Assembly: GCA_002746135.1 (NCBI GenBank)
Contig: NVWE01000011.1
Coordinates: forward strand, 54,401-91,199
Direction: 5' to 3'
From: Cellvibrionales bacterium
GTDB taxonomy: Bacteria; Pseudomonadota; Gammaproteobacteria; Pseudomonadales; Porticoccaceae
Length of the DNA stretch: 36,799 bases
Numbering within the stretch: the first letter of the stretch is position 1; each line of letters starts with the position of its first letter. Shown piece by piece: positions 1 to 16,997 of the stretch. The translations under genes and the position numbers were made by a program. The notes under the pieces were generated by a model that was not told the DNA's origin, did no database searches, and saw nothing but the letters and a program-made list of their open reading frames with translations.

Positions 1-2
1 CC

Positions 3-767: not shown

Positions 768-788
768 GACAAGACTTAAGCTATCAAC

Positions 789-1540: not shown

Positions 1541-1628
1541 TGCATACCTTTCCTGTTGGTTTACCAAGTATGGGGGTGCCTTAGCACAGCATAAACACCC
1601 ATACTTTATATTGAAAGACTATATTTTA

Positions 1629-1657
1629 TTGACTTTTTAAAAAATGACCCGTTAAAT
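1629..1657 (+). promoter_or_regulatory. Candidate sigma-70 promoter for the lysine-rich protein
   Basis: TTGACT at 1629-1634 and TTAAAT at 1652-1657 are separated by 17 bases and lie about 70 bases upstream of the ATG at 1729. The -35 is a good match and the -10 is weak. A TATAAG at 1661-1666 is an alternative -10 but lacks a good -35. Confidence 0.35.
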
Positions 1658-1728
1658 AGCTATAAGTTATTACTTTTACCCAGTAATAACGACATAAACA
1701 TACACTACAACAAAGAAGGAATAGCACA

Positions 1729-1917
1729 ATGGCAAAAACACTTAAGAAAAAAGCCGTCAAGAAACTGGTTTTGAGCGCAGTTAAAAAAGCTGACATCAAA
1801 AAGAAGAAAGTTAAAAGCGTTGCCAAAAAAGTAACTAAAGTTGCTTTGAAAAAGAGTGTTTCAAGCAAGAAGAAAGCCGCTAAAGTCATAAAGAAAGCCG
1901 TCAAAAAAGCAGCATAA
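1729..1917 (+). CDS. Lysine-rich histone H1-like small basic protein
   Basis: This is a 62-residue protein in which 26 residues are lysine. The rest is mostly Ala, Val and Ser, with a single acidic residue (Asp22). Short units of the type KKAVKK and KKKVKS recur, as in the C-terminal tails of histone H1 and in bacterial H1-like proteins (Hc1, AlgP/HimP type). A good ribosome site (AAGAAGGAA) precedes the ATG, and a strong terminator follows 50 bases after the stop, so this is a genuine single-gene transcript. Nucleic-acid binding, as a nucleoid or RNA chaperone-like protein, is the likely role from composition alone. It is short for the AlgP family and contains no globular domain. Confidence 0.75.
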   Translation: MAKTLKKKAVKKLVLSAVKKADIKKKKVKSVAKKVTKVALKKSVSSKKKAAKVIKKAVKKAA

Positions 1918-1967
1918 GTCTGATGTGAGAGATTAGGCGGTGGTGTATTACGCGCTTAAACACTCGC

Positions 1968-2015
1968 AGCCCCGCAAGACCCATCAATATTAATGAGTCT
2001 TGCGGGGCTTTTTCT
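1968..2015 (+). terminator. Rho-independent terminator after the lysine-rich gene
   Basis: A perfect 13-bp stem, AGCCCCGCAAGAC (1968-1980) with its complement at 1997-2009, has a 16-base loop and is followed by a T-run at 2009-2013. It also lies downstream of the convergent acyl-CoA dehydrogenase gene, but the T-run favours termination of the plus-strand transcript. Confidence 0.9.
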
Positions 2016-2070
2016 TTCAAGGTCTGGGCTTGTTTCTATCGAACAAACCCTGATCTATACGACCAATACC

Positions 2071-3225
2071 TTAACTACGCGCACCCGACGCCAGCAGGCG
2101 ACCAATAATAATGCGCTGCACCTCTGAAGTCCCTTCGACAATTTGCATAATTTTACTGGCGCGGAAAATACTCGCCACTGGGTAGTCTTCCATCACGCCG
2201 TTGCCACCCAGTATTTGCACCGCATCGCTGGCGCATTGCTCGAGCATTTCCGAGGCATAGAGCTTGGCACTGGCCGCTTCAAAGGTGTGGGGGCGACCTT
2301 CATCTTTTAACCAAGCCGCTTTTAAATAAAGTGTTCGCGCCATTTCGATTTTCACCGCCATATCGCTGAGTTTGAACTGCACGCCCTGAAATTCAAAAAT
2401 GGGCTTGCCGAATTGCTCACGTTCTCGGGCATAAGCCAGGGAATGATCGAGGCAGGCCTGCGCTGCACCCACACAGGCCGCGGCAATACTGATGCGACCG
2501 GTCTCGAGCACGGCGAGGTGCTGGGCGAAACCGCGACTGGGGTCACCGAGAATACTGTCTTTGGGAATTCGGCAGTTGTCAAAAATCAGCTCGTTAGTGG
2601 CGCCGGACTCAAAGGCAATTTTGTCGTAGCTTCTACCCACCACTAAGCCCGGTGTATCTTTGGGCACGATGAAGGTAACAATCTGCTCTTTACCTTCGAT
2701 CTCGGCACGGGCCGCAACGACCACCAACGAGCAGTGATCAAGGCCAACATTGGTGATGAACTGCTTGCTACCTTCTAACACCCATTCATCGTCAACCAGT
2801 TCAGCGCGCATTTTCAGGCTACCGGCATCGGAACCGCTGCCAGGTTCGGTCAGCGCAAAGGCACCAATGGCTTTACCGGAACATAAATCGGGCAACCACT
2901 GCTTCTTTTGCGCCTCGGTACCAAAACGATCAATTTCCTGAGCGACAACACTCGTGGTGACATCGAGCAGAGTACCCAGGGCAATATCCGCCCGCGAAAC
3001 TTCTTCAATCACCAGGTGCATCGACACCCAGTCACCGCCACCGCCGCCGTACTCCTCACTAAAGGGCACGCCCATAAAACCCATATCGGCCATTTTGTGG
3101 AGGATGTCGTAGGGCACATCGCTGCAGGTTGAAAGTTTCTGAAATTCAGGCGCGATAATGTCGCTGGCAAAACGCCTGGCCATATCGCGGATAATGCTCT
3201 GTTCTTCATTCAGGTCAAAATTCAT
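2071..3225 (-). CDS. Acyl-CoA dehydrogenase
   Basis: This FAD-dependent enzyme catalyses alpha,beta-dehydrogenation of an acyl-CoA and passes electrons to ETF. The 384-residue length is normal for the short/medium/branched-chain group. The N-terminal helical domain begins MNFDLNEEQ. The FAD/substrate motif FALTEPGSGSDAG lies near residue 130 and FITNVG near residue 157. The C-terminal signature includes QILGGNG and the VEGTSEVQR motif, whose Glu364 is in the place of the catalytic base. It lies 59 bases downstream of an enoyl-CoA hydratase gene on the same strand, which suggests an operon for two consecutive beta-oxidation-type steps. Which acyl chain is used (fatty, branched or aromatic-derived) cannot be told from sequence alone. 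Confidence 0.93.
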   Translation of the reverse strand: MNFDLNEEQSIIRDMARRFASDIIAPEFQKLSTCSDVPYDILHKMADMGFMGVPFSEEYGGGGGDWVSMHLVIEEVSRADIALGTLLDVTTSVVAQEIDRFGTEAQKKQWLPDLCSGKAIGAFALTEPGSGSDAGSLKMRAELVDDEWVLEGSKQFITNVGLDHCSLVVVAARAEIEGKEQIVTFIVPKDTPGLVVGRSYDKIAFESGATNELIFDNCRIPKDSILGDPSRGFAQHLAVLETGRISIAAACVGAAQACLDHSLAYAREREQFGKPIFEFQGVQFKLSDMAVKIEMARTLYLKAAWLKDEGRPHTFEAASAKLYASEMLEQCASDAVQILGGNGVMEDYPVASIFRASKIMQIVEGTSEVQRIIIGRLLASGARS

Positions 3226-3284
3226 TGCGTCTAATTCTCAATAATTACTGTGTTGTTAAGGGCGCCTGCTTACCACAAGGCTCG

Positions 3285-4061
3285 TTATTTACCGCTCCAT
3301 TGGGGTTTGCGCTTTTCAACAAAGGCCTTAAAACCTTCGGCCCTGTCTTCGGTAGCGAACAAAAAGTGGAACAAACGCTGCTCCGTCGACAGCCCGTGAA
3401 CGAGGGTTTCGTCCAGCGCAGCATTGACACACTCTTTGCCCACTTCCACCGCCAGGGGTGGCCGCTTGGCCAAATCAACCGCCAGCGCCTGTGCCTTGTC
3501 CAGCACCTCGTCACCTGGGCAGGCGTAATTGGCAAGACCAAAATTGATAGCCTCATCGGCGTTAAGCGTGCGGCCATTCAGAATCATCTCCATCGCCAAA
3601 GGCTTGCCGACGATGCCCGGTAAACGCTGAGTGCCTCCGGCGCCGGGAATCACACCCAGCGTCACCTCGGGCAAACCAAGGCTAACGTCATCGCTCACGA
3701 CGACCATGTCGCACTGCATCACCAGCTCGAGACCACCGCCCAATGCCAGTCCTCTCACGGCGGCAATAATTGGCTTGCGGAAGTTTTCAATCGCCCGCCA
3801 GCTGGGGTTGTCAAAATGGCGGCGCGCATCAACGGCGGAAAAGTCCATCAACTCACTAATGTCAGCACCAGCGGCAAAGGCGCGCTCGCTGCCCGTCAGT
3901 ACGACGGCCCGTACGCCATCATCATTTTCAAAACCTGTAAGCACGGCACGCAGCTCATCGAGCATACCCTGACACAAAGCATTTAATTGCTTGGGCCGGT
4001 TAAATTGCACCCGAGCAAAACCTCTGTCGTCTTTTTCAACCATCAAATACTGATATGTCAT
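3285..4061 (-). CDS. Enoyl-CoA hydratase/isomerase family protein
   Basis: This is a crotonase-fold protein of 258 residues. The oxyanion-hole segments AFAAGADISE (residues 61-70) and ALGGGLELVMQCD are present. Glu112 (GGGLE) and Glu132 (GLPEVTLG) sit 20 residues apart, as do the two catalytic glutamates of mitochondrial enoyl-CoA hydratase (Glu144/Glu164), so hydratase activity is well supported. IPGAGGTQRL follows, as usual in the family. It is the first gene of a probable two-gene operon with the downstream acyl-CoA dehydrogenase. The two together would form and then hydrate an enoyl-CoA. The specific pathway is not shown by the sequence. Confidence 0.92.
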   Translation of the reverse strand: MTYQYLMVEKDDRGFARVQFNRPKQLNALCQGMLDELRAVLTGFENDDGVRAVVLTGSERAFAAGADISELMDFSAVDARRHFDNPSWRAIENFRKPIIAAVRGLALGGGLELVMQCDMVVVSDDVSLGLPEVTLGVIPGAGGTQRLPGIVGKPLAMEMILNGRTLNADEAINFGLANYACPGDEVLDKAQALAVDLAKRPPLAVEVGKECVNAALDETLVHGLSTEQRLFHFLFATEDRAEGFKAFVEKRKPQWSGK

Positions 4062-4296
4062 TTAGCTGTCTCCCGTTTATGGATGTGCATGGGCAATGCG
4101 TATCAACGCCTGCGCTGACGGATTGTAAGCAAATAGAGGCAGGTATCTTATAAAACTAATGACTATCAGGTCATGGGGCGGGGAATGGTGGGGAGGCTTT
4201 GCACTGTTTTTTTGCTACGACTAGCAAACAACTAAACAAGGGGACATTACCGAGCCTTCGGCAGATAGAAAAAGGCCCGGCAATGAAATTGGTCGA

Positions 4297-4824
4297 TTAT
4301 TTAAACTGATCATCCAACGGCGTGTGCGCCAGTTTATTGGTGTAATTACTGATTATCTTCTGTGCGATGCCGAGGATAATTTCGAGCAATTGCTGGTTGC
4401 CATAACCGACCGCGTTAAAGCGTGTGATTTGCTCATCGTTAAGGTCGCCGCGCTGATTTAATACTGCCTGCGTGGTGTCTCTCAGCACATCCAGTTTTTC
4501 TGTCGGCAGCGCCTTGCCTTCGTTCAAACTATTGATAAGGGCAGAATCGACTTCCATCATTCCCGCAATCGTCGTGTGGGCAGGCACACAGTAGTGGCAT
4601 TCGTTTTCAAGATTAATGGATTGCCAGACAACCGTCAGCTCTTCCGCATCAAAGCTGCTCTGTTGAAACAAACCGTGCAGGCTTTTATAGGCGGTGAGTA
4701 CCGGCGGGGCCTCCGCCAGTACAGCATGTAAATTTGGCACCCAGCCAAAAGACGCAATCGAATCTTTCAGCTCATCTTGCGCCGCCTGCGGGGCCGTTTC
4801 TGGGGTATAGAGGGTAAATGACAT
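4297..4824 (-). CDS. Carboxymuconolactone decarboxylase / AhpD-like protein
   Basis: This 175-residue helical protein carries the CMD signature NECHYCVPAH, with Cys76, Cys79 and His83 in the CxxC...H arrangement of AhpD-like alkylhydroperoxidases. The CxxC pair suggests peroxide or thiol redox chemistry rather than true carboxymuconolactone decarboxylation. That is family knowledge, not shown here. The gene is divergent from an AraC-type regulator at 4959, with about 135 bases between them, a common arrangement for a regulator and its target. It ends with TPLDDQFK and TAA, with no clear terminator after it. Confidence 0.88.
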   Translation of the reverse strand: MSFTLYTPETAPQAAQDELKDSIASFGWVPNLHAVLAEAPPVLTAYKSLHGLFQQSSFDAEELTVVWQSINLENECHYCVPAHTTIAGMMEVDSALINSLNEGKALPTEKLDVLRDTTQAVLNQRGDLNDEQITRFNAVGYGNQQLLEIILGIAQKIISNYTNKLAHTPLDDQFK

Positions 4825-4856
4825 GGGCTATCTCCTGTAGTGTGAAAGTGTCTCGA

Positions 4857-4877
4857 GGCAGAGTGGATGATTCTGCC
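4857..4877. promoter_or_regulatory. Dyad in the divergent AhpD-like / AraC intergenic region
   Basis: GGCAGA (4857-4862) and TCTGCC (4872-4877) form a perfect 6-bp inverted repeat with a nine-base spacer between the two divergent starts. It could be an operator. AraC proteins usually bind direct repeats, so this assignment is weak. Confidence 0.25.
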
Positions 4878-4958
4878 ACCTGAAGAGGCCATGACTTTAC
4901 GCCGCAAAGGTCGTACGATGAATGCCTTATAAGACGAAATTATAGCTCTGGAGTCCGA

Positions 4959-5849
4959 GTGTCGCCCTTAAACGACCTGACCAAATTACTCAAACTGCAC
5001 GTAGAGGTCTACCATAACGCCCGTGTTTGCGGCGACTGGAAAATAGAAACCGGCCCCGAACCGGCTGGCAAAACCTGCTTTCACATGGCCACCCAGGGCG
5101 GCTGCCTGTTAAGTGTGCCGGAGCACGACAACTGGGTACTCACAGAGGGCGACCTGGTGATCTTCCCCCGGGAAATCGCCCACAGTATGGTCAGCCAACA
5201 GCCGCAACAGGGCGCGCAACAACATCTGCTTATCAGCCAGTCTCAAAAGACAATTGGCACCAGTATGCTCTGCGGTGAAATCACCTTTGCCAACCCCGGC
5301 TTTCAGGTCTTACTCGATGCTCTGCCCACAGTGTTTGTTATTGCGCGCGACGACTCCACACCCTGGTTAACGGAATTATTGAATTTGATACTCGCCGAAA
5401 GCCTGAGCAGCGAAACCGCATCTAACCCCCTGCTCGACAAACTTTGCGAACTGCTCTTTGCCTACGGCTTACGCCACTTTATTGAATATCAAAATAACAA
5501 AATTGGCATTGTGGCCCTGTTCAGTCACCCGAAAATCACTCGTGCTGTTAGCGCTATTCACAAAAAACCGGATCACGAATGGGGGTTAATAAGTCTTGCC
5601 GAAGAAGCGCAAATGTCCCGCACCCAGTTCGCCCAAACCTTTAAACAACTCAGTGGCTGGACAGCCATGCAATATCTCACCTGGTGGCGCATGCAACTGG
5701 CGTGGTCATACCTTGATGCTGGCGAACATGTTGCTACGGTTTCTGAAAAAGTGGGTTATCGTTCAGAGTCAGCCTTCTCGCGGGCCTTTCAGAAGAGTCA
5801 TGGGGTGAGTGCTGGGGCGGTGCGACGTAAAGGACGAACGGATAAATAG
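4959..5849 (+). CDS. AraC-family transcriptional regulator with N-terminal cupin
   Basis: This 296-residue regulator starts with GTG at 4959 behind a CTCTGGAG ribosome site. Residues 1-160 form a cupin-like sensor half (WVLTEGDLVIFPREIAHS is the typical cupin/AraC-binding stretch). Residues 195-296 carry the two helix-turn-helix motifs, SLAEEAQMSRTQFAQTFK and VATVSEKVGYRSESAFSRAF, which are conserved in AraC proteins. It is divergent from the AhpD-like gene, so it probably controls that gene in response to a small ligand or redox cue. The pairing is inferred from position only. The family call is secure. Confidence 0.92.
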   Translation: MSPLNDLTKLLKLHVEVYHNARVCGDWKIETGPEPAGKTCFHMATQGGCLLSVPEHDNWVLTEGDLVIFPREIAHSMVSQQPQQGAQQHLLISQSQKTIGTSMLCGEITFANPGFQVLLDALPTVFVIARDDSTPWLTELLNLILAESLSSETASNPLLDKLCELLFAYGLRHFIEYQNNKIGIVALFSHPKITRAVSAIHKKPDHEWGLISLAEEAQMSRTQFAQTFKQLSGWTAMQYLTWWRMQLAWSYLDAGEHVATVSEKVGYRSESAFSRAFQKSHGVSAGAVRRKGRTDK

Positions 5850-5899
5850 CGTTCTATTAACAAGCCAAAAGCAATGTAACATCGAGCTAGAGAATTCGC

Positions 5900-6187
5900 T
5901 TAGAAGTTTTTCTCATTCTCTTTGTTGTGCCAGATTCTTAATATAAAGATGGCGTCGCTGGTGATGAGATAACGCGCGGTGTAGTGACCCACATAAAGGT
6001 CACGAATTTGCTCTGGATCAGGCGCTTTTAAAACTGGCAGGCCAATCCGGGGGAATTGCTTAAGCCTGTCGACACCCTCCTGAAGATCAATAGCAACTCG
6101 CCGCGCCGCATAAGGGTTTTCACTCTCTAAAAATTCCACGACCCGCTCAAGGTCGGCAATGGCCTCCGACGAGTATTTTACTTTCAT
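5900..6187 (-). CDS. ParE/RelE-family toxin of a type II toxin-antitoxin pair
   Basis: This protein of about 95 residues has the ParE/RelE layout: SSEAIADLERVVEFLESENP in the first helix pair, QFPRIGLPV in the middle and the C-terminal strand IFILRIWHNKENE. ParE-type members inhibit gyrase and RelE-type members cut mRNA on the ribosome; the sequence does not decide between them, though the layout is closer to ParE. The ATG at 6185-6187 overlaps the antitoxin stop by one base (TGATG), giving translational coupling. A GTG one codon earlier (6190) is possible. The antitoxin gene lies upstream, as usual for parDE. Confidence 0.88.
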   Translation of the reverse strand: MKVKYSSEAIADLERVVEFLESENPYAARRVAIDLQEGVDRLKQFPRIGLPVLKAPDPEQIRDLYVGHYTARYLITSDAIFILRIWHNKENEKNF

Positions 6188-6450
6188 CACTTAGGCGATG
6201 ACTTTCTTGCACCGCTACCCCAGGAATTAAGCCAGACATTGACATCCGCTTCATCGACAGACTGACCCGCCTCAACTGACTCAAGCGCCTTAAGCGTATC
6301 TTGCCAGCGTGAGTCTTCAAGGGCTTGCCTGGCAATAAACTCCTTAATCGCCTGATTAATCAGGTAATTTTTACTGCGATCTAATTTTTTTGACAGGGAC
6401 TCCAGGGGCTTATCCATGTCGTCCGAGAGCCGAATGCTTGTAATGCTCAT
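6187..6450 (-). CDS. Ribbon-helix-helix (CopG/ParD-like) antitoxin
   Basis: This is an 87-residue protein. Its first 40 or so residues (SITSIRLSDDMDKPLESLSK and then RSKNYLINQAIKEFI) match the beta-alpha-alpha RHH DNA-binding fold of CopG/Arc antitoxins. The remainder is an acidic toxin-binding tail ending near NVWLNSWG. An AAGG ribosome site precedes the ATG. It is the first gene of the toxin-antitoxin operon and would be expected to repress its own promoter in the short region 6451-6494. That region also separates it from the apparently truncated gene at 6495. Confidence 0.88.
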   Translation of the reverse strand: MSITSIRLSDDMDKPLESLSKKLDRSKNYLINQAIKEFIARQALEDSRWQDTLKALESVEAGQSVDEADVNVWLNSWGSGARKSSPK

Positions 6451-6494
6451 AAGCCTGCCTTCACGTAGTCATTTGTATTACATCTTAGTACCAT

Positions 6495-7418
6495 TTGAAA
6501 AGGGTGGCCAGAGGGATTTATAAAGCCTTATTAATGCACGCACCTTCGCAAGCCGCGTCTGCTTACTACTTTTTAACTTTTCGCCAGCAAGAAGTGGTCA
6601 ACCATGATGTCGACAATCAGGATCTGCCAGCCGCATATGACGTCGAAGGGGCCTATAACAGTTTCTGGTGGGATTTCGGTACTGAAATGAACGAAGATCG
6701 ACGCACATCATTGATTGTCGACCCAGCCAATGGGCGTCTGCCAGCCCTGACGCCAGAAGCACGGGAATACATGAAAAGGAACCTACTGCACACCCCGCCA
6801 GTCAGGGTCTTTGGCTCCCTCGGTGAAGTCACATTTCGCCCCAAAGGGCCGGAAGCACTCGGGCTATCTGAACGCTGCCTGGTGGGATTCAATGCCGGCC
6901 CACCGCTGATACCGAGCGCCTATAACAACAACATCCGCATCGTACAGACACCCGGCTATATTGTTTTATTCACCGAGATGATTCACGACGCACGCATTAT
7001 CGCCATGAATAACAGCCCGCAATTACCGCAGGACATTAAAAGATGGTCAGGCGGTTCAAGAGGCCATTGGGAGAAAGACACGCTCGTCATCGAAACAAAC
7101 AATTTCACCGATAAAACACCGGTCTATCAATTGCCCATTAACTTGAAAGACCCGTCGATGAACGGCGTAGTCGGCAGAGGCAAAGATTTAAAGCTGACCG
7201 AGCGAATAACGCGAATCAGCGATTCTCGCCTGCTCTATGAATACACCATCGACGACCCCAATACATTCACAAAACCCTTTACCGTCGCAATACCCATGAA
7301 GGCGACTGAAGATCAAATGTTTGAATATGCCTGTCACGAGGGCAACCACTCAATGGCCTGCATGCTGGGTGGGGCGCGAACCCTTGAGAGAAAAGAAGCA
7401 CAGGCTGCCAAAAACTAA
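6495..7418 (+). CDS. Uncharacterised secreted-family protein, apparently 5'-truncated
   Basis: The body contains stretches such as RTSLIVDPANGRLPALTPEA, ERCLVGFNAGPPLIPSAYNN, MIHDARII, SRGHWEKDTLVIETNNFTD and FEYACHEGN. I recognise these from an uncharacterised family of exported proteins in marine gammaproteobacteria, sphingomonads and acidobacteria. Those usually begin with a signal peptide followed by a PDLxGxW segment. Here both are missing: the frame opens directly after a TAG at 6486-6488, with TTG (6495) or an internal ATG (6534) as the only starts and no good ribosome site. The toxin-antitoxin operon begins only 45 bases away. Loss of the 5' end is therefore likely, and the gene may be non-functional. 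The function of the family is unknown. Confidence 0.6.
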   Translation: MKRVARGIYKALLMHAPSQAASAYYFLTFRQQEVVNHDVDNQDLPAAYDVEGAYNSFWWDFGTEMNEDRRTSLIVDPANGRLPALTPEAREYMKRNLLHTPPVRVFGSLGEVTFRPKGPEALGLSERCLVGFNAGPPLIPSAYNNNIRIVQTPGYIVLFTEMIHDARIIAMNNSPQLPQDIKRWSGGSRGHWEKDTLVIETNNFTDKTPVYQLPINLKDPSMNGVVGRGKDLKLTERITRISDSRLLYEYTIDDPNTFTKPFTVAIPMKATEDQMFEYACHEGNHSMACMLGGARTLERKEAQAAKN

Positions 7419-7471
7419 TGCAGTTAAGCTATCGTCAAATTCATTGGCTGTATTTTTGATAAACTGAGGGG

Positions 7472-7516
7472 CTTCCGCACCTGCCATATGTGCCAGAAAT
7501 GTGGTGGGTACGGAAG
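7472..7516. repeat. Long imperfect inverted repeat (hairpin)
   Basis: CTTCCGCACCTGCCA (7472-7486) pairs with TGGTGGGTACGGAAG (7502-7516), with a 15-base loop, two G-U wobbles and one mismatch in 15 positions. No T-run follows on either strand, so it is not an obvious terminator. It lies in the gene-free gap between the truncated secreted-family gene and the 3' end of the GHKL/STAS operon. Confidence 0.6.
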
Positions 7517-7624
7517 AACCGAATCCATGCTCTTGTGACTTACCCCTGCAATCAATGCCCCACTATTAAGCGGGTAAAGTTACTTAAAAGATTGATAATG
7601 CGTGTATGCAAGGCCCTATTCTGA

Positions 7625-8227
7625 CTAAGACCGAATCCCAATTTCCAATAACTCTGCACGAACTTTGGCACAGTCAATAGCTATTTTTGCTGCCCTACCT
7701 TTTGATGGCTTCCTATTAACAGATTCGAACTCACCTCCTGTAGTAAGGTCAAAAACTGAATCAGAAAAACTCTCAATAGACTTAGCTATTTCTGCACCCC
7801 GGTTATTTAAAGAGAGGCTAGAAAGCAATCGTGAATATTTAACAATTAGCTTAAAAAATGATTTTATCCGGATTTCACAAGTCTGACACTCTACTAATTC
7901 TTCTACCTTAAAATCTGTAAGCCAATATTTTATAGCTATAGATTCAAAATCAAAAACCACCTCTTTAAGACTTAACGCAGTCTCCGCTACGGCATTCCTT
8001 TTACCCTCCAGTTTCCAATGGAAGAAGCTAAATAAAAATGCAGCTATGGCACCAGATATCGCACCAATCACCGTAATAATTAAAGCATCAAAAAATCCAT
8101 CGATTACTGAGCTTTCAACAGCTACTGCAATTCTTTCTACAAAAACAACCAGATCTTCGGGCATTAACTGTATAGAGTTTGATAAAACACCCCAAACTTG
8201 CTCACCATTCATTTGATTGCAATCCAT
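7625..8227 (-). CDS. Single-span membrane protein, third gene of the GHKL/STAS operon
   Basis: This 200-residue protein is not recognised. One clear membrane segment lies at about residues 46-69 (FFDALIITVIGAISGAIAAF, with a GxxxG pattern), followed by basic residues (WKLEGKR) that place the C-terminus in the cytoplasm by the positive-inside rule. The remaining 130 residues look mostly helical, with two cysteines in ECQTCE. It starts 20 bases after the stop of the STAS-like gene and has the same AT-rich composition, so it is very probably co-transcribed. A role as the membrane-located partner or effector of the upstream signalling proteins is inference from context only. Confidence 0.7.
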   Translation of the reverse strand: MDCNQMNGEQVWGVLSNSIQLMPEDLVVFVERIAVAVESSVIDGFFDALIITVIGAISGAIAAFLFSFFHWKLEGKRNAVAETALSLKEVVFDFESIAIKYWLTDFKVEELVECQTCEIRIKSFFKLIVKYSRLLSSLSLNNRGAEIAKSIESFSDSVFDLTTGGEFESVNRKPSKGRAAKIAIDCAKVRAELLEIGIRS

Positions 8228-8247
8228 TGACCATATTCACCCTGAAC

Positions 8248-8613
8248 TCAGTTATTTTTTGTTGAAATATACGACTGTGAGTTAAACTTAGCTTCAGCTA
8301 TATACTTCTTGATTTTTTTCTCAAAAAATTCAAAATCCGGATCTGAATAAAGAAAGTCCAACTTATCTAATAAATCCTGTGCTGATATATACCCATATTT
8401 CACCATTCCCGCAAACCCTTCTACAAGGAACGATGACCCATAACCATCCACACCGTTATCAAGTGTGATTTCTACCTTCTCATCTTCAGCTAGCGACTCA
8501 ATACATGGCTTTAAGTGCTCCTCTCGAAACTGCTCCCCACTTGGCATTTTATCGCTATAGAATCGCCCCCCAGGGTCGACTGAAAAATCTTTACCTATAT
8601 CCATTTTCTTCAT
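8248..8613 (-). CDS. STAS-like (DUF4325-type) domain protein
   Basis: This 121-residue protein has the features of the DUF4325 STAS-like family: an opening of the form GKDFSVDPGGRFYSDKMPSG, then EQFREEHLKP, a strand-rich VEITLDNG and the conserved GYGSSFLVEGFAGMV. STAS proteins act as phosphorylation-controlled binding partners of GHKL kinases, as in SpoIIAA with SpoIIAB. The preceding gene encodes a GHKL ATPase 19 bases upstream, which fits. I see no obvious conserved phospho-serine site beyond the serines of GYGSS, whose role is not known. The start is taken as ATG 8613; ATG 8604 three codons later is also possible. Hand-counted G+C at 8281-8340 is 17 of 60. Confidence 0.82.
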   Translation of the reverse strand: MKKMDIGKDFSVDPGGRFYSDKMPSGEQFREEHLKPCIESLAEDEKVEITLDNGVDGYGSSFLVEGFAGMVKYGYISAQDLLDKLDFLYSDPDFEFFEKKIKKYIAEAKFNSQSYISTKNN

Positions 8614-8632
8614 ATGTGAGATCTGCCTGATA

Positions 8633-9769
8633 TCAATCTAACGTAACTTTCCAAATGATCAACGTTCCTAAAACCGGGTTATTGAAATGCTCTGATTTCA
8701 CATGCGCTTTGCCATCTTTCATAGAAAACCTATACAGCCCTCTTCGGCTAAGTATAGACAAATAACCGTTCTGTCTTTGCTTTACAAACTCAAGCATATC
8801 CTGCAACCCTTTTCCTCGATCTGATGATTGTGTACTTGTGCGGTCTAGCTCTACAGCTGCTTTAAGTAGCACTTCATCCTTTTTACGTTCTACTAAAGAT
8901 AAGCCAGACAAACGATCTAATAATTTCTCCCAAACCTCAGAAGCAGGTAGCGACTTAGGAATCCCAATCCCCTGGTCATAAAAAACGATTTTCAACTCTT
9001 TTGTTTTATGATTAAACCCACCCGACAGATACCAATTTTTGGCATCTGTCGTACGGCTTTTTGGGTAAGCATGTTGAGAAACATTTGTAATCGCTTCTGT
9101 TAACCCAGTATTCAAAAATATCCACTTACTGATATCTTCACCTACTATCTCACGTAAACCTGCCTTAAGTTGGCGAGTTTTAGCATTATCACCGCACTCA
9201 CCCTTTATATACTTTACAAGATTTACATCTGGATTCTCATTCTTAAGTATGGACGCTTCCTGTACTGGGCTATTTTGAAAAAGCTCAAAAAAGCCTAGCT
9301 CATAGAATCGCAACAAGATGGACTCATCCCAACCATCCACAAAAGGTCGAAGTTTTTGCCTTATCGCATCATCCCACTTTGATAACTCTGCAGTAAGAAC
9401 AAGCGCAGCTGAAGTTGAAATATTTCTAAGGCCATCAAAGTCAACAAGACTCAAATAATAAGCCTTTCCTTTATGCCGTACAGATTGAGACAATCGCCTT
9501 ATTGCTTCAATATGTAATGTTGTAGTGTCGTAATGAGAAGAAAAGTTCATTGTCTCCGGCAGTTTCAAGGTCACATCACATCTTTTGCCTATTAAGGCAT
9601 TTAGTTCTCCACAACGCTGATTATCTATCCATAGGTTTAATTTGCGCCACGAAACTCCCGAATCATTGTCACTACTTCCACTTTGACTCAGTAGTTTCGG
9701 CTTTTGTTTACGATGAAGAAAAGCAGTTTTCCGATCCCTGCATCGTTGTTTCTCTGAAATTTTTTTCAA
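8633..9769 (-). CDS. GHKL (HATPase_c) ATP-binding protein with STAS-like N-terminal region
   Basis: This is a 378-residue cytosolic protein. Its C-terminal half has all three GHKL boxes: the N-box LTEAITNVSQHAYP (Glu225, Asn229), the G1 box DQGIGIP (Asp265, Gly267, Gly269) and the G2 box RGKGLQDM (Gly319, Gly321). The HAYP form of the N-box is like SpoIIAB/RsbW-type serine kinases and ATPases, not histidine kinases. I see no phospho-acceptor histidine domain. Residues 65-165 (including LSLVDFDGLRNISTSAALVL and ELGFFELF) follow a STAS-like pattern. The start is a TTG directly after an in-frame stop. It heads a three-gene AT-rich operon. ATP binding is well supported; kinase activity and partner are inferred. 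Confidence 0.82.
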   Translation of the reverse strand: MKKISEKQRCRDRKTAFLHRKQKPKLLSQSGSSDNDSGVSWRKLNLWIDNQRCGELNALIGKRCDVTLKLPETMNFSSHYDTTTLHIEAIRRLSQSVRHKGKAYYLSLVDFDGLRNISTSAALVLTAELSKWDDAIRQKLRPFVDGWDESILLRFYELGFFELFQNSPVQEASILKNENPDVNLVKYIKGECGDNAKTRQLKAGLREIVGEDISKWIFLNTGLTEAITNVSQHAYPKSRTTDAKNWYLSGGFNHKTKELKIVFYDQGIGIPKSLPASEVWEKLLDRLSGLSLVERKKDEVLLKAAVELDRTSTQSSDRGKGLQDMLEFVKQRQNGYLSILSRRGLYRFSMKDGKAHVKSEHFNNPVLGTLIIWKVTLD

Positions 9770-9828
9770 CGCCAGTTATACCTTAGTTTTATGCGACTAG
9801 ATATTTTCTTCCATGGACGGAGTATTAG

Positions 9829-9844
9829 CAGATAGTTATATCTG
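9829..9844. promoter_or_regulatory. Candidate operator dyad upstream of the GHKL operon
   Basis: CAGATA (9829-9834), GTTA and TATCTG (9839-9844) form a perfect 6-bp inverted repeat about 60 bases upstream of the TTG start of the GHKL gene. No clear sigma-70 promoter could be assigned here, so operator function is a guess from position. Confidence 0.3.
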
Positions 9845-9849
9845 TATCA

Positions 9850-10096
9850 TCACGATTTTGATTGTAACCCATCGAACTCTATCGTCACTGCCTCAAGCTC
9901 ATCCTGCAAGTCCAGCCGCTCTTCCCCAGCGCTTGCAGTTCATGTTTCCTCTCACCCTGAGCCTTTATCAATTTATTCAGCTCCTGCACCGGCTTGTCGG
10001 TATAAAGGGCAGGATCGGCAAGTTGCTCGACGAGGCCTTCCAGCCTTGTTTCCAACTTGACCATTTGCTTTTCAATGGCGCTGATCTTTTTGTGCC
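9850..10096 (-). pseudogene. Decayed duplicate of the ABC-F (YheS-like) gene 3' end
   Basis: The minus strand encodes a near-copy of residues of about 571 to 645 of the intact ABC-F protein at 10603-12552. KKISAIEKQM and EQLADPALYTDKPVQELNK are readable. A one-base deletion then breaks the frame, after which ERLDLQDELEAV resumes in another frame, ending at a TGA at 9850-9852. A 48-bp stretch (9972-10019) is identical to 10723-10770. There is no ATPase domain and no start, so this is a non-coding relic. Plus-strand frames across it are antisense shadows. It sits at the upstream edge of the GHKL/STAS operon and marks a recombination or insertion junction. Confidence 0.85.
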
Positions 10097-10167
10097 ATTC
10101 GGGTCTAACCCCTTAAGTGCGCATTTTTTAATGCCTTTCTTAAGCTTGAAGAAATATAAAGCAGTTT

Positions 10168-10509
10168 TTACCCGCAGCACTTCTTATATTTTTTACCGCT
10201 TCCGCAATTGCAAGGCTCGTTACGCGCAGGAAGCTCATCAACTTTAACGGTACCCTTTTTATTAAGGAGCACTGTCAGCTCAGCGATAGACTCAACAGCA
10301 TCTTCACTACCATCGAGTTTAACCACGGCATGCAACTGCGCTTCAACCACCAATGCTTCCACTGCTTGCTTGCGCGCCTCGCTGGTAACGATCAATTCCA
10401 AGGGATATTTTTTACTGCCGAATTTTCGGCTAGCGTTCACGTCACGACCGTATTCAATGTGGTTCTCGCGTGCATCTTGACGGCCCATAAAAAAGAATTT
10501 ATCTGACAT
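10168..10509 (-). CDS. PBPRA1643-family SWIM/SEC-C metal-binding protein
   Basis: This 113-residue protein begins [15 protein letters not shown] and ends with the SEC-C zinc motif [15 protein letters not shown] (CxC...CC), the same zinc-binding tail as at the C-terminus of SecA. The start, the length and the tail match the small family annotated as PBPRA1643-type SWIM/SEC-C proteins. Its function is not known. Zinc binding by the last four cysteines is family knowledge. The gene lies on the same strand as the ABC-F gene, 93 bases downstream of it, and is bracketed by the intact ABC-F 3' end and the decayed duplicate of that end. Confidence 0.88.
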
Positions 10510-10602
10510 GTCATAACCCTAATTGTTGTAAAAAGATAAGCTGCAACCATCAATAAGTTGGTCGCCAGCTAAAATACGTTTAGCCTGCCAATTCAAACAA
10601 AA

Positions 10603-12552
10603 CTACCCAGTAAACTGCCCTTCAAACTCCTCAGTCATCATTTCCAGTTCATCCTGCAAGCCCAGCCACTCTTCCTCCAGCGTTTGCAGTTCATTCTTGC
10701 CCTCACCCTGGGCCTTCATGAGTTTATTCAGCTCCTGCACCGGCTTGTCGGTATAAAGGGCAGGATCGGCGAGTTGTTCTGCGAGGGTTTCGAGCTTTGC
10801 TTCCAGCTTGGCCATTTGCTTTTCAATAGTGCTGATCTTTTTGCGCTGGGGGGCGGCTTGCCTGCGGAACTCGGCCTGCATGCGTTTTTGCTCTTGCCGG
10901 TCGGGGGCTTTGCCCACGGGATTTGAGCCTGTATTTTCGCCCGGCACGGCGTTAGCATCTTCAGCACCTGTATCTAAGGGCCGGGGGGCGCTTTTAATCT
11001 GCAGCCGTTGATAGTCGTCTAGATCACCGTCAAAGGGTTTGACTTCGCCATGGGCGACCAGATACAGCTCATCAACCACGGTGTGTAGCAGGTGACGGTC
11101 GTGGGAGACGACGACAACCGCACCCGGAAATTCCTGCAGGGCGAGAATTAATGCTTCGCGCATATCGACGTCAAGGTGGTTGGTTGGCTCATCGAGTAAT
11201 AACAGGTTGGGCCTTTCCCAAACCAGCAGGGCCAATGCGAGGCGGGTTTTTTCACCGCCAGATAGTGGGCCAACCGGGGCGAGTACGGCATCACCGCGAA
11301 AGCCGAAGGTGCCGAGATAATTACGCAGCTCCTGTTCTTTAACCCCATCGGCAATGCGCTGTAAATGGAGTAAAGGGCTGGCATCGAGGTCTAGCGCGTC
11401 AAGTTGCTGCTGGTCAAAATAACCCACCTGCAGTTGGCGACCACGGTCGACATCGCCAGACACCGGTTCAATCACGCCGGCGAGTAATTTCACCAGTGTC
11501 GATTTACCCGCGCCGTTGCGCCCGAGCAAGCCAATGCGCGAACCCGGCAGTAAATTGATGTGGATGTGCTTGAGGATGACGGTGTCGCCATAACCTGCCT
11601 TCACCTGATCAAAGCTAATCAGCGGCGAGCACAGTTCGTCGGGCTCAAAGAATGTAAAATCAAAACCGCTGGCGGCATGCATGGGGGCGGCAGCCTGGAG
11701 TTTTTCTAGGGCTTTAACCCGGCTTTGCGCCTGTCGTGCCTTGGTGGCTTGATAGCGAAAGCGGTCAACAAAGGCTTGCAGATGAGCGCGCTGGCGTTGC
11801 TGCTTGTCAAACACGGCCTGTTGCAGCATTAAACGTTCGCCGCGCTGGCGCTCGAAACTGGAGTAATTACCCGCGTAGGTATCCAGGGCTGTGGCGTTGA
11901 AATGAATGATGCCGTCGACCAGATTGTCGAGAAATTCCCGGTCGTGGGAAATTACAATGAGGGTGCCGGAATAACGCTTGAGCCAGCGCTCGAGCCAGAC
12001 TACGGCCTCTAAGTCGAGATGGTTGGTGGGTTCATCGAGTAACAGTAATTCAGAGGGTTTCAGCAGGGCGCGAGCCAGGTTCACCCGCATACGCCAGCCA
12101 CCAGAAAAGCTCGACACCGGCTGCTGCTGTGCCTCGTGTTCAAAGCCCAGGCCAGCCAACAACTGCGCGGCGCGCGAAACCATAGAGTAACCGTCGAGGG
12201 CTTCGTAATTGTGGTGCCAGTGGGCCAGCACATCACCCCCGGCGACTTCTGCTGCTTCTTTCTCGGCTTCGAGAGCGCGGTATTCGCTGTCACCGTCGAT
12301 GGTGTATTCGAGGACAGAGCTGGAGATACTCGGGGTTTCCTGGTCGACACTGGAGATACGCCAGTGGACGGGAAAGCCGATATCACCAGCATCGGCGTGT
12401 AGCTCGCCTTTTAACAGAGCGAAGAGCGATGACTTACCCGAGCCATTAGCGCCGATCAGGCCGATCTTCTGGCCGTCGTGCACCCGTAGGTTGGCGTCTT
12501 TTAACAGGCTTTTATTGCCGCGAATCAGTTCCAGGTTTTGCGCTGTAATCAT
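10603..12552 (-). CDS. yheS: ABC-F family ATPase, YheS-like
   Basis: This 649-residue cytosolic protein has two ATP-binding cassettes and no membrane domain. Walker A sites are at residues 34-42 (GANGSGKSS) and 344-352 (GRNGAGKST), signature motifs at about 149 (FSGGWRMR) and 431 (SGGEKTR), and Walker B/LLLLDEP at 169-175 and 450-456. The linker with FRYQATKARQAQSR and the C-terminal charged coiled coil (about 555-645) match YheS of E. coli in length and order. ABC-F proteins act on the ribosome to relieve stalled or difficult translation; the exact role of YheS is less settled. The gene begins 5 bases after ttcA and is probably co-transcribed with it. Its 3' end is partly duplicated at 9850-10096. 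Confidence 0.93.
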   Translation of the reverse strand: MITAQNLELIRGNKSLLKDANLRVHDGQKIGLIGANGSGKSSLFALLKGELHADAGDIGFPVHWRISSVDQETPSISSSVLEYTIDGDSEYRALEAEKEAAEVAGGDVLAHWHHNYEALDGYSMVSRAAQLLAGLGFEHEAQQQPVSSFSGGWRMRVNLARALLKPSELLLLDEPTNHLDLEAVVWLERWLKRYSGTLIVISHDREFLDNLVDGIIHFNATALDTYAGNYSSFERQRGERLMLQQAVFDKQQRQRAHLQAFVDRFRYQATKARQAQSRVKALEKLQAAAPMHAASGFDFTFFEPDELCSPLISFDQVKAGYGDTVILKHIHINLLPGSRIGLLGRNGAGKSTLVKLLAGVIEPVSGDVDRGRQLQVGYFDQQQLDALDLDASPLLHLQRIADGVKEQELRNYLGTFGFRGDAVLAPVGPLSGGEKTRLALALLVWERPNLLLLDEPTNHLDVDMREALILALQEFPGAVVVVSHDRHLLHTVVDELYLVAHGEVKPFDGDLDDYQRLQIKSAPRPLDTGAEDANAVPGENTGSNPVGKAPDRQEQKRMQAEFRRQAAPQRKKISTIEKQMAKLEAKLETLAEQLADPALYTDKPVQELNKLMKAQGEGKNELQTLEEEWLGLQDELEMMTEEFEGQFTG

Positions 12553-12557
12553 CGCTA

Positions 12558-13418
12558 TCAGTTCCCCGTCAAATTGACGATATCAATTTTATCGGGATTA
12601 AAATCCACAGCATCTTCACCACGCTGTAATTTTAGACCGGTGAAATCAAAGAGTTTGGTATCGGCCAATTGTGAAGGGGCTAGATTTTTAATCGCTGAGA
12701 AAATCGTTTCCGTGCGCCCGGGATACTCCTTCTCCCAAGCCTGTAGCATCTCTTTGATGACCTGGCGCTGCAGGTTTTCCTGCGAGCCGCAAAGGTTGCA
12801 GGGAATAATGGGGAATTCTTTGTACTCTGCCAGCAGCTCTAAATCATCTTCACGGCAATAAGCGAGGGGGCGAATGACGATATTCTTCTTGTCGTCACTC
12901 AATAATTTCGGCGGCATGGCTTTTAGCTTGCCACCAAAAAACATGTTTAAAAACAGGGTTTCAATAATGTCGTCACGGTGATGGCCAAGGGCGATTTTAG
13001 TAGCGCCAATTTCCTGGGCAAAACCGTAGAGGCTGCCACGACGCAGGCGCGAACATAAACCGCAGTAGGTTTTATTTTCGAGCACCCGCTCGGTGACAAT
13101 ACTGTAGGTGTCTTTTTCGAGAATATGAAAAGGCACGCCCTGTTCGGTGAGATATTCTGGCAATACGTGTTCGGGGAAACCCGGTTGTTTCTGGTCGAGG
13201 TTAACGGCGATCAGTTCAAAGTCTATCGGTGCCGTCTTCTGCAAATTGCGCAGTATTTCGAGCATGGCGTAGGAGTCTTTACCCCCCGAAAGACACACCA
13301 TTACCTTGTCGCCCGCTTCGATCATATTGTAATCGGCAATGGCGGTACCCACCTGACGGCGCAAACGTTTATGTAGCTTGTTCAGCTCGAGGCGATTTTT
13401 ACGGGGCTGGTGGGTCAC
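12558..13418 (-). CDS. ttcA: tRNA 2-thiocytidine biosynthesis protein TtcA
   Basis: TtcA thiolates cytidine 32 of certain tRNAs using ATP and a [4Fe-4S] cluster. The 286-residue protein has the PP-loop SGGKDS at 44-49 and the cysteine pairs CGLC (Cys119, Cys122) and CNLC (Cys207, Cys210). These correspond to the cluster ligands and the nearby cysteines of E. coli TtcA (Cys122, Cys125, Cys213). LGHHRDD, typical of the TtcA/TilS group, is at 145-151. The gene is directly upstream of yheS. The 5' side is separated from the preceding DUF547 gene by a strong terminator, so a promoter should lie in 13419-13536. Confidence 0.95.
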
Positions 13419-13536
13419 GGGTATTACCTACGGGCTAAAAAGGGGCGCGCCATTGTAAAGCTTCGGGGCTGGACATACCAAGGGCAGTGCTATTCCAGCA
13501 CCCAACGATCATCTGCGCCAAACTGGCGGAACAATA

Positions 13537-13565
13537 AAAAACGGCGCTCTGTAAGCGCCGTTTTT
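13537..13565 (-). terminator. Rho-independent terminator after the DUF547 gene
   Basis: The perfect inverted repeat AAAAACGGCGCT (13537-13548) / AGCGCCGTTTTT (13554-13565) has a five-base loop and A- and T-runs on its two sides, so it can act in both directions. It lies 19 bases past the stop of the minus-strand DUF547 gene. Confidence 0.9.
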
Positions 13566-13583
13566 ATCCCCTAAGCCACTGAC

Positions 13584-14405
13584 TCAGGGCGCGTTGATAC
13601 GCCAATCGTGTGTGTAATCAATCTTGCCGTTGAAGCCGAGCAAGTAGAGGGCATCACGATCATCCGAATAATGGGCAAAAACTTTCAGTAACTTTTTGTC
13701 ACTCTTGGCGAAATCTGCTTTATACCATTCAAAAAGCTTTGATACGTGCAGCTCACCATTTTCCAACCGCACGCCACGCGGGTGTTTAACAAATTCGTAA
13801 CCCGCTTTTTTCAATAGTTCGCGACTGTTGGCACCGGTAAAAGCCTGAGGTTGTAAATTCGGGCAGCCTAAACCGCCGCAAGCTAAACCAAAATGTACTT
13901 TATGGTCTTGCCACAGAGGACGTAGAATGCGGTGTTCAATATCGTTAAGTGAGATTTTTTGCCCCGCTACGCTGGCGAGTTTTTTATCCCAGGGACCTTT
14001 CATACCGGAACCACGGGGGCCGGGGATATTTTCCACACTGTCGACCGGATAGTTATCTAAAATCAGATCCAGCGTCAGGGCATTATAAAGGTTCAACCAA
14101 TAGGCTTTTTGCTCTGCACGGCTGTAGTCCCGTGGGTCTAGGGATGTACTCGTTGTAATATAATGGTTCAGTTGTTTGCGGTGCTTGCGGCTTACGTCAT
14201 CGTAGCGAAAACGGTTAATACCCGAAGCATGGCCAGTAATAACATAGGTATTGAGAATAGAGTCGAGAGCGGAATGGTCAATCATTCGTCGGTTAGCTTC
14301 GCTACTTTTGTTCCACAACGGCCAGTAATCAGGCGCCGGGGCAGCAATACTCAGCCCACTGACCATGAGTAATACGACGCTCAATCCCATCTTAAATGTT
14401 TTCAC
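13584..14405 (-). CDS. DUF547 domain-containing exported protein
   Basis: The start is taken as the GTG at 14403-14405 (273 residues), because AGGGG lies at a proper distance upstream and this start gives a compact signal peptide (MKTFKMGLSVVLLMVSG, then AAPAPDYW). The longer TTG start at 14423 would place that ribosome site inside the gene. The mature part has the DUF547 hallmarks YWLNLYNALTLDLIL, ISLNDIEHRILRP, HFGLACGGLGCPNL and LSKLFEWY-like VSKLFEWYKADF. DUF547 has no agreed function. The protein is expected in the periplasm or envelope. It is divergent from bioA and ends at a terminator. Confidence 0.88.
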   Translation of the reverse strand: MKTFKMGLSVVLLMVSGLSIAAPAPDYWPLWNKSSEANRRMIDHSALDSILNTYVITGHASGINRFRYDDVSRKHRKQLNHYITTSTSLDPRDYSRAEQKAYWLNLYNALTLDLILDNYPVDSVENIPGPRGSGMKGPWDKKLASVAGQKISLNDIEHRILRPLWQDHKVHFGLACGGLGCPNLQPQAFTGANSRELLKKAGYEFVKHPRGVRLENGELHVSKLFEWYKADFAKSDKKLLKVFAHYSDDRDALYLLGFNGKIDYTHDWRINAP

Positions 14406-14543
14406 AATGTTGTCCCCTGCCAACGATGCTTCGCGGTGTAATCCTTGAGCGATGAATCTAACGTAGAGCCTTTGTTGTGGCTATAACGCCTGTCATACTG
14501 CAAAGGCCTCCTATCCCTAATTCACGGAACCGCTTAACAAATT

Positions 14544-15839
14544 ATGAATTTAAAAAACCTCAGCACCCGCCAGATTCGCGCCATCGACCAGGCCCACGTC
14601 TGGCACCCCTATTCATCGCTGAGCCAACCGCTGCCCACTTATCATGTCACATCTGCCAGCGGCGTACGCCTGCAGCTCGGCGACGGAAGTAAATTAATCG
14701 ACGGCATGTCATCTTGGTGGTGTGCGATTCATGGCTACAACCACCCCCAATTGAACGAAGCTGTAAGCACACAGTTGACGAAAATGTCCCATGTTATGTT
14801 CGGCGGCATTATCCACGAGCCAGCAGCCCAATTGGCACAACGGCTGGTCGATATTACACCGGAACCCTTAAACAAGGTGTTTTTCAGTGATTCCGGTTCG
14901 GTCAGTGTGGAGATCGCCATTAAGATGGCTCTACAATTTTGGCAGGCCAAGGGCCACGCAGAAAAAAACCAGCTGCTAACTTTAAGAAAGGGTTATCACG
15001 GTGACACCTTTGCCGCGATGTCGGTCTGCGACCCTGAAACCGGTATGCACCACCTGTTTAGCGAAGTACTCCGCCAGCAAGTCTTTAGCGAATCGCCCCG
15101 CTGCCCCTTTAACGAAGCTTGGCAGCCAGACTACCTCGCTGATTTTGAACACCAATTGATTGGCCATAAAGATCGGCTTGCGGCGGTGATACTGGAACCC
15201 ATCGTGCAAGGCGCCGGTGGCATGCACTTTTATTCGCCGGATTATTTAAAAGGCGTACGCGCGCTGTGTGACGAACACAACGTATTGTTAATTGCCGACG
15301 AAATTGCCACCGGCTTTGGTCGCACCGGCAAACTTTTCGCCTGTGAATGGGCGGATATCAGCCCCGACATACTGTGTATTGGCAAGTCACTGACCGGCGG
15401 TTATATGACATTGGCAGCCACGCTGTGCAACGATAAAGTCAGTGATGGCATCGGCGAAAGTGAGGCTGGTGTATTTATGCACGGGCCGACGTTTATGGCC
15501 AATCCCCTGGCCTGCGCCGTGGCCAATGCCAGTATAGAGCTGTTATTGGCCTCAGACTGGCAGGGAAATATTGCCCATATTGAAGCCCAACTGAAAGAGG
15601 AGCTTGCACCCTGCAAAGCCTACAACACCGTGACTGATGTGCGGGTGTTGGGTGCCATTGGCGTGGTGGAGATGAAAGACTTTGTCGATGTCGCGGCACT
15701 GCAAAAGCGCTTTGTCGAGGCCGGCGTGTGGATTCGCCCCTTCGCCAAACTGGTGTATGTAATGCCCGCCTTCAACATTGAAGCCGCCGATCTGAGCAGC
15801 CTGACAGCAGCTATTGTTGAGGTACTCAAGCCCGACTAA
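14544..15839 (+). CDS. bioA: Adenosylmethionine-8-amino-7-oxononanoate aminotransferase (BioA)
   Basis: BioA converts KAPA to DAPA with S-adenosylmethionine as amino donor, the antepenultimate step of biotin synthesis. The 431-residue class III aminotransferase has HVWHPYSS near the start (18-25), SSWWCAIHGYNHP at 56-68, ADEIATGFGRTG at 251-262 and the PLP lysine at Lys281 (CIGKSLTGG). HVWHPY and SSWWCAIHG are specific for BioA among this class. It is not in a bio operon here; no bioB, bioF, bioC or bioD is present. That is common in Pseudomonas-like genomes. I could not find a convincing BirA operator upstream, and the ribosome site is weak. Confidence 0.95.
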   Translation: MNLKNLSTRQIRAIDQAHVWHPYSSLSQPLPTYHVTSASGVRLQLGDGSKLIDGMSSWWCAIHGYNHPQLNEAVSTQLTKMSHVMFGGIIHEPAAQLAQRLVDITPEPLNKVFFSDSGSVSVEIAIKMALQFWQAKGHAEKNQLLTLRKGYHGDTFAAMSVCDPETGMHHLFSEVLRQQVFSESPRCPFNEAWQPDYLADFEHQLIGHKDRLAAVILEPIVQGAGGMHFYSPDYLKGVRALCDEHNVLLIADEIATGFGRTGKLFACEWADISPDILCIGKSLTGGYMTLAATLCNDKVSDGIGESEAGVFMHGPTFMANPLACAVANASIELLLASDWQGNIAHIEAQLKEELAPCKAYNTVTDVRVLGAIGVVEMKDFVDVAALQKRFVEAGVWIRPFAKLVYVMPAFNIEAADLSSLTAAIVEVLKPD

Positions 15840-15871
15840 GCCCTGACTAAATCCACCATCAACGTGGAGTA

Positions 15872-16879
15872 CTAGGCGAGCGGGCGAATACCCACTGCGC
15901 GACGCACTTCATCCATCAAGGGCTGACTAATGGCTCTGGCCTTTTCAGCACCGGCCTGCAATATGGCCTCTATTTCATCTGGCGCATTAAGCAGAGCTTC
16001 GTAGCGTTCACGGGCCGGAGCCAACTCAGCATTCACCAAGGCAAACAGTTGTTTCTTGGCCTCGCCCCAGGCGATGCCCTTGGCAAATTCTTCACGCATC
16101 TCCGCAATTTTCTCGGGCGTGGCAAAGGCCTGCCAGATTTGAAACACCGAGGAGGTATCGGCATCTTTCGGCTCGCCCGGCTCTAACAAGTTAGTTTTGA
16201 TTTTATTGATGTATTTTTTCAGCTTCTTTTCGGTGAGAAATAGCGGAATGGTATTGCCGTAGCTCTTGCTCATTTTGCGGCCATCGAGGCCCTGCAGCAA
16301 AGGCACATCGTCATCGACCAGGGCCTGGGGCAGAGCAAAGTGTTCGCCGTAGTGGTGGTTGAAACGCTGGGCAATATCACGCGCCATTTCGACGTGTTGA
16401 ATCTGGTCGCGACCCACTGGAATTTGATGAGCGTTGAACATCAGGATGTCGGCGGCCATCAATACCGGGTAGCTGAACAGGCCCATCGTCACGCCGAAGT
16501 CGGCATCTTCCCCCGCCGTTTCATTATCTTGCACCGCTGCTTTGTAAGCGTGGGCGCGATTCATCAAACCCTTGGCAGCCATGCAGTTGAGCAGCCACAT
16601 TAATTCGGGAATTTGCGGAATATCGGACTGGCGATAAAATACCGCCTGGTCGGTATCGAGACCCAGGGCAATCCAGCTGGCGGCAATTTCCAGGGTCGAG
16701 CGATGTACCGCGTCGGGATCATTGCATTTGATCAGGGCGTGGTAATCAGCGAGAAAATAGAAGGACTCGACATCGCTATTTTTACTGGCCTCAACGGCGG
16801 GGCGAATGGCACCCACATAATTGCCCAAATGAGGGGTGCCGGAGGTGGTAATGCCGGTCAGGATTCTCTGCTTGCTCAT
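15872..16879 (-). CDS. trpS: Tryptophanyl-tRNA synthetase
   Basis: This class I aminoacyl-tRNA synthetase has 335 residues, the normal bacterial length. The HIGH-type motif is HLGN at 17-20 ([14 protein letters not shown]) and the KMSKS loop is at 202-206 ([11 protein letters not shown]). The segment [19 protein letters not shown] at about 141-159 is the tryptophan/dimer region typical of TrpS. It converges with bioA, with only 32 bases between the stops. It lies 118 bases downstream of the metal-efflux permease on the same strand, and probably has its own promoter in that gap. Confidence 0.96.
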
Positions 16880-16997
16880 AATTTCTCTGCGCCATATTTC
16901 TGTTTGTGCGAGGTAACACCGCTAATGGCGATGCTGAAAAAAGTCGGCGCAATGATACCTGATTTCAGGCTCCTGTCGGGGCTACTCAACAACTCAG

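Follow-up and report, generated by a model that had tools for sequence, protein, structure and literature searches.

A broken ABC-F gene end at a DNA seam beside an AT-rich operon in a Cellvibrionales bacterium

Why does the 3' end of an ABC-F gene occur a second time, at the border of an AT-rich operon? We addressed this question in a 36,799-nucleotide stretch of a Cellvibrionales genome (the window, to which coordinates refer unless another locus is named). The genome that carries it, G000, is a draft of 31 contigs (3.07 Mb, contamination 3.35%) and belongs to a collection of 112 genomes of its family, six of them congeners of G000. The intact ABC-F gene (12552–10603, minus strand, 649 aa), which we take to be YheS, has PRK10636 as its best NCBIfam model with a score below the model cut-off, and passes the cut-off of a ribosomal-protection-like ABC-F model. 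Further along the minus strand lie a SEC-C gene (10509–10168; PBPRA1643 family, TIGR04102) that was absent from the initial annotation, the relic (9850–10092, minus), a startless copy of about the last 80 ABC-F codons with a broken frame, and then the operon. The latter consists of a GHKL-ATPase-like gene with weak profile matches only (8633–9769), a STAS-like DUF4325 gene (8248–8613) and a third gene (7625–8227) whose product has a hydrophobic stretch near residues 33–70, all on the minus strand.

The relic and the intact gene end form a direct repeat of two ungapped blocks, 9926–10095 against 10677–10846 (86% identity over 170 bases, spacing 751) and 9868–9925 against 10618–10675 (74% over 58 bases, spacing 750). 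They are the sole self-match in the 36.8-kb window at an E value of 1e-3 or better, with E 1e-63, and the repeat is therefore not due to chance. The partial, same-orientation repeat that had been described in the initial annotation is thereby confirmed, and the alignment also reproduced its 48-bp identical core (9972–10019 = 10723–10770, minus strand) and its frame-breaking one-base deletion relative to the intact gene, which lies between 9925 and 9926. Over 240 comparable bases the two copies are 80.8% identical (46 differences). Because its frame is broken and it has no start, the relic copy is dead; two open reading frames that overlap it (9813–10247, plus strand, without a Pfam match, and 9977–10180, minus strand) were taken as chance frames.

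The right edge of the relic lies between 10091 and 10095. On the left, similarity is firm only from 9868 (to 10092), and 9850–9867 could be either unrelated DNA or a diverged C-terminus that closes with TGA. If the relic reached 9850 it would end in LQSKS-stop, unlike the six aligned ABC-F genes. Since the ABC-F origin of these bases is uncertain, we infer rather than observe that the operon stood right behind the stop codon of the donor gene. The G+C content of the relic (49.8%) resembles that of the far flanks (50.1% and 52.3%) and not that of the operon (38.5%), so that the relic is chromosomal in make-up; the SEC-C gene with its flanks has 43.5%.

Comparison with G004, the closest relative among those compared, placed the seam. 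G004 matches the window at 1–6050 (89.7%) and 10092–17371 (88.7%), SEC-C gene included. Its similarity starts at the G at 10092, with unrelated DNA to the left of it; it departs from the window at about position 8811 of its locus L033 and has no relic. The seam (10091–10095) thus has ABC-F-like relic to its left and DNA shared with G004 from 10092 on, and the DNA on its left is absent from this sister lineage. The relic belongs with the operon side. The G at 10092 fits both G004 and the ABC-F end, and with a single mismatch to the intact gene tolerated the common stretch extends over 10092–10095. Foreign-looking and resident DNA are joined at 10091–10095 over 1 to ∼ 4 common bases, as judged against G004 and the intact gene rather than against the donor sequence. 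Identity to G004 in 500-base windows is 89–93% from the seam through 12500 and 80–97% in windows elsewhere, with no step, and fourfold divergence between G000 and G004 is alike in ABC-F (77/308) and SEC-C (10/43). From these two observations the SEC-C block looks vertically inherited. The seam is not a repeated element: a 20-base pattern from 10092 has a single occurrence in the genome even when as many as three mismatches are tolerated. Nor did the alternative DNA of G004 prove to be a segment that had moved within G000, where only a ParE remnant and one short 74% match to it were found. In the place of the operon segment (L033, 9048–10240) G004 has what by eye looks like a transposase remnant and, further right, two small unknown genes.

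The SEC-C gene stands beside ABC-F in G000 and G004 only, among the relatives read there. A search with it gave a match in 70 of the 112 genomes, nearly all to the short SEC-C motif, and the only close full-length homologue among the matches listed, G004 aside, was in G002 (68%). As this homologue lies on a different contig from the G002 ABC-F gene, relocation or acquisition of SEC-C probably predates the separation of G000 from G004. The G002 homologue resembles the window only within the gene, and SEC-C was dismissed as the source of the seam.

How rare the relic is was assessed in several ways. Scoring the best six candidate places per genome, a search with its DNA gave matches in six of the 112 genomes: G000, with both the relic and the intact gene; four congeners, with their ordinary ABC-F end; and G012, with a 33-base match elsewhere. 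In these best six places no other copy of the relic, and so no donor, appeared in any of the 112 genomes. The case that the initial annotation had named as fatal to its reading, a relic without the operon, likewise did not occur in the best six places of the 111 other genomes. A protein search with the ABC-F end matched 84/112 genomes; a second piece close to the main gene was seen in G000 only, and seven other genomes gave weak second matches (E 3e-4 to 9e-3), each within a long open frame on a different contig. We also inspected 30 ABC-F loci, that of the window plus 29 more (G001, G002, G004, G005 and G017 included), with ∼ 1.5 kb of downstream sequence for every locus except L032, where 89 bases were covered. 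The ABC-F tail is repeated in the window's own locus alone; one other match, of 17 bases and on the opposite strand, came from L013. The GHKL-like protein found no match in the family genomes except in G000 itself, and no donor with the operon adjoining ABC-F was found in the family genomes searched.

The downstream side of ABC-F was read in the five relatives with a close gene (G001, G002, G004, G005 and, from another genus, G017); no close ABC-F gene was shown in the congeners G003 and G006. The DNA after ABC-F varies among the relatives read, and a fragment in G001 resembles, by eye, the end of the downstream gene of G005, the remaining ones being different. In G001, G002, G005 and G017, ABC-F is not accompanied by SEC-C, and no second ABC-F end lies close to the gene. 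It had been expected that in relatives lacking the operon ABC-F would be followed directly by the sequence now near 7420; this failed in all five, where other DNA follows. The position of the relic at the border of the AT-rich operon, on the other hand, holds, the relic forming the margin of DNA that was found in none of the relatives read.

On the left flank, G003 matches the window at 6579–7488 (82.6%) and 4377–5828 (80.3%). In G003 a 378-aa, full-length homologue of the 5'-truncated gene at ∼ 6560–7418 (plus strand) directly follows an AraC gene, and similarity runs on to 7488. The window is arranged likewise, save that AraC and the truncated gene are separated by a ParE/RHH pair (5900–6450). 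The G003 contig ends 1.9 kb beyond its match and has no ABC-F gene on it. By this comparison the sequence up to 7488 is native-looking DNA, beside the AraC gene as in G003. Because similarity to G004 stops at 10092 and similarity to G003 near 7488, the stretch 7489–10092, without a nucleotide match in the loci of the compared relatives (relic excepted), looks like one foreign piece comprising the AT-rich operon and an ABC-F end.

The same flank has two further features. The ParE/RHH toxin–antitoxin pair (5900–6550) adjoins a gene that is short of ∼ 95 N-terminal residues compared with its G003 homologue; a ParE remnant lies at the same place in G004 (79% over 130 bases), and G013 has a 73% match to 5900–6526 that takes in the whole pair. 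G003 carries a second partial copy of its post-AraC gene (4390–4697 of L091; 308 bases against window 6714–7021, 82%), ∼ 1.5 kb downstream and in the same direction, another partial duplication on the other side of the same spot.

We favour, with modest confidence, a model in which the relic is the seam of a one-sided illegitimate recombination of the homology-facilitated type (HFIR) between two versions of the spot downstream of ABC-F. The first version, seen in G004, has ABC-F, SEC-C and other DNA; in the second, assigned to a related lineage, the GHKL/DUF4325 operon would have adjoined the ABC-F gene end of that lineage. From this second version a fragment, operon plus ABC-F end, would have entered a chromosome of the first. 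The right end of the fragment would have been joined with almost no homology ∼ 75 bases beyond the SEC-C stop codon; the left joint was probably a homologous crossover within shared DNA to the left of 7489, and the resident DNA between both joints would have been lost. The left flank is common to G003 up to ∼ 7488, and the crossover point itself is not visible there. The donor ABC-F end, now without a start, would have fallen out of frame and degenerated, and the 48-bp stretch would perhaps have been matched later to the intact gene by gene conversion. That the operon side is the newcomer, and not the SEC-C side, is more likely because the sister also has the SEC-C side, with no step in identity, and the GHKL gene is unique.

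The model resembles HFIR as known from transformable bacteria and E. coli (PMC3240628) in its apparently near-homology-free joint, in the foreign DNA on one side and in a loss of resident DNA that we infer here. It differs in that only an old product is left as a scar and the homologous anchor is not located. The duplication as such lends HFIR no support, since in the E. coli study a deletion was the expected outcome of HFIR, and the partial duplications seen (109–950 bp) were attributed to shortened circles that had recombined by a single crossover (PMC3240628).

The mirror event would account for the observed structure equally well. Here the operon would have stood behind ABC-F in the original chromosome, and a G004-like fragment (ABC-F end and SEC-C) would have replaced the front, displacing the old gene end as the relic; one anchor, by homologous recombination in ABC-F, and one illegitimate joint, inside the old ABC-F end, suffice. 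Its topology is that of effector–immunity displacement in V. cholerae, in which the 3' end of the old effector gene is shifted back (PMC5361080), and the low G+C content of SEC-C with its flanks (43.5%) also speaks for it. However, identity to G004 does not rise beside the seam (89–93%), and the piece that is missing from the sister is the GHKL gene, not SEC-C. We therefore regard the mirror event as possible, though unlikely. The V. cholerae T6SS loci share with ours an intact gene, a downstream gene, a truncated 3' end from another copy and further genes in one orientation (PMC5361080); unlike them, our locus has an ABC-F ATPase gene in place of an effector gene, is a single case in the family genomes searched and shows no stacking. 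A T6SS-like stacking spot was accordingly rejected: there is one relic only, with no second piece near the main gene in the other family genomes that gave a match or in the 29 other loci, most of them covered for 1.5 kb downstream.

Copying of the genome's own ABC-F end next to the operon by a rearrangement appears improbable. The relic is identical to the genome's intact gene over the 48-bp core, and a tree of the 240-base tail in which relic and G000 are the closest pair had, by a hair, the best likelihood (AU p 0.545). All five relic placements tested were accepted (AU p 0.19–0.60). At 12 sites G000 and G004 agree against relic and outgroup, compared with four at which relic and G000, and three at which relic and G004, stand against the outgroup majority. 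These patterns favour a relic lineage outside G000 and G004 and speak against a copy from G000, although decay can mimic outgroup states. Own-genome duplication would moreover leave unexplained why the relic directly borders an operon that was not found in the relatives. Identity of the relic to the ABC-F ends of other genomes is 81.2% for G004, 73.3% for G002 and G005, 67.5% for G001 and 53.6% for G017. Of the origin proposed in the initial annotation, a partial and old copy stands; derivation from a related lineage is possible, given that the tree accepts all placements, and gene conversion of the core is plausible.

The age of the relic was judged from its substitutions. It has 25 private changes (codon positions 1/2/3: 7/7/11), of which 17 (0.68) are nonsynonymous against a random expectation of 0.73; the 12 sites at which relic and outgroup share a state (codon positions 4/2/6) were left out, and because of this the private class is skewed towards nonsynonymous changes. 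Among all differences from G004, the nonsynonymous share is 25/45 (0.56) for the relic, 5/16 for G000, 24/50 for G002, 22/42 for G005 and 25/55 for G001. The private changes likely represent near-neutral decay, but the contrast with distant functional genes is slight. At fourfold sites of ABC-F, G000 and G004 differ at 77 of 308, or ∼ 0.15 per lineage after correction. Set against this value, the 25 private changes in 240 sites suggest, as a rough estimate, that for much of the interval since G000 and G004 diverged the relic was already dead.

The 48-bp core stands out from this decay. Given 46 differences in 240 sites, an identical run of 48 bases has a probability of ∼ 0.0005 in uniform shuffles, and the same value was obtained when shuffling was stratified by codon position and conservation class. 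Elsewhere the stretch shows no particular conservation, with seven to nine differences per 48 bases in G001, G002 and G005 and one in G004, and one of its bases (GAG against GAA in G004, G002 and G001) is common to the relic and the intact gene only. Its excess length, its ordinary conservation and the GAG confined to the two copies make it plausible that the core, a candidate tract on the evidence of this one stretch, was partly gene-converted to the intact gene.

The ABC-F 3' end might be a reusable homologous anchor for accessory modules (SEC-C, and the operon before or after it), each bringing its own gene end without an integrase. The end of a housekeeping gene would then act as effector genes do in stacked T6SS immunity arrays, an idea that we consider quite doubtful.

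The initial annotation had explained the repeat as the product of a Campbell-type insertion of the operon. This explanation falls, as a single crossover places the inserted DNA between the two copies: what stands there is SEC-C, which G004 has at this place without a relic, and the operon, lying outside the pair, cannot be what such a crossover inserted. Had a small circle carrying an ABC-F end and SEC-C integrated in Campbell fashion before the G000–G004 split, by one crossover, this would fit the direct repeats of period 751 that flank SEC-C, with the relic as the old gene end; shortened-circle crossovers leave such duplications in E. coli (PMC3240628). Yet G004 has the inner piece with one ABC-F end only, and would need an independent second break within ∼ 4 bases of the relic edge; with SEC-C and without the relic, it appears to keep the original left context. 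We hold this origin to be very improbable. A misjoin in a draft of 31 contigs with 3.35% contamination is scarcely credible, as two misjoins would be needed (both sides run into congener-shared DNA) and the relic, differing from the intact copy at 46/240 sites, is no repeated copy of it.

At this locus DNA pieces with different histories meet at a seam placed within a few bases, and the relic may be read as a gene fragment that records another lineage. On the reading preferred above, a mobile-looking three-gene module is suggested to have reached the chromosome without a recognisable integrase, most likely through exchange between relatives plus one illegitimate joint. The locus bears a clear though ordinary mark of gene transfer and adds one more example to a known class of events. 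Bacterial chromosomes have variable spots beside conserved genes, and the locus is like them in that relatives differ in the DNA after ABC-F; in contrast to such spots, no integrase was recognized among the proteins scanned in 5900–9769. No family of this kind was found among the six proteins concerned and the repeat does not stand at both ends of the operon, and an integrase-mediated island at a gene 3' end was therefore rejected.

The bordering operon may be of more interest than the relic. PADLOC gave no match for its first two genes and only a weak one for the third (Orf5, E 0.0075). No Rfam family reached the gathering threshold in 5800–10700, and the promoter and terminator scans found three and two candidates, compared with 6.7 and 2.7 in shuffles. 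Searches of genome contigs and of viral contigs with the GHKL-like protein returned one distant relative each (29%). Distant relatives of this protein (26–30% identity) are encoded on Novosphingobium, Vibrio and Acinetobacter plasmids, by Marinobacter phage AS1 and by a Helicobacter prophage. In all five regions inspected (of six matches) a STAS-like gene, annotated as such in four and recognized by sequence in AS1, comes after the GHKL-like gene, and in four of the five a gene for a small protein with an N-terminal hydrophobic stretch stands next.
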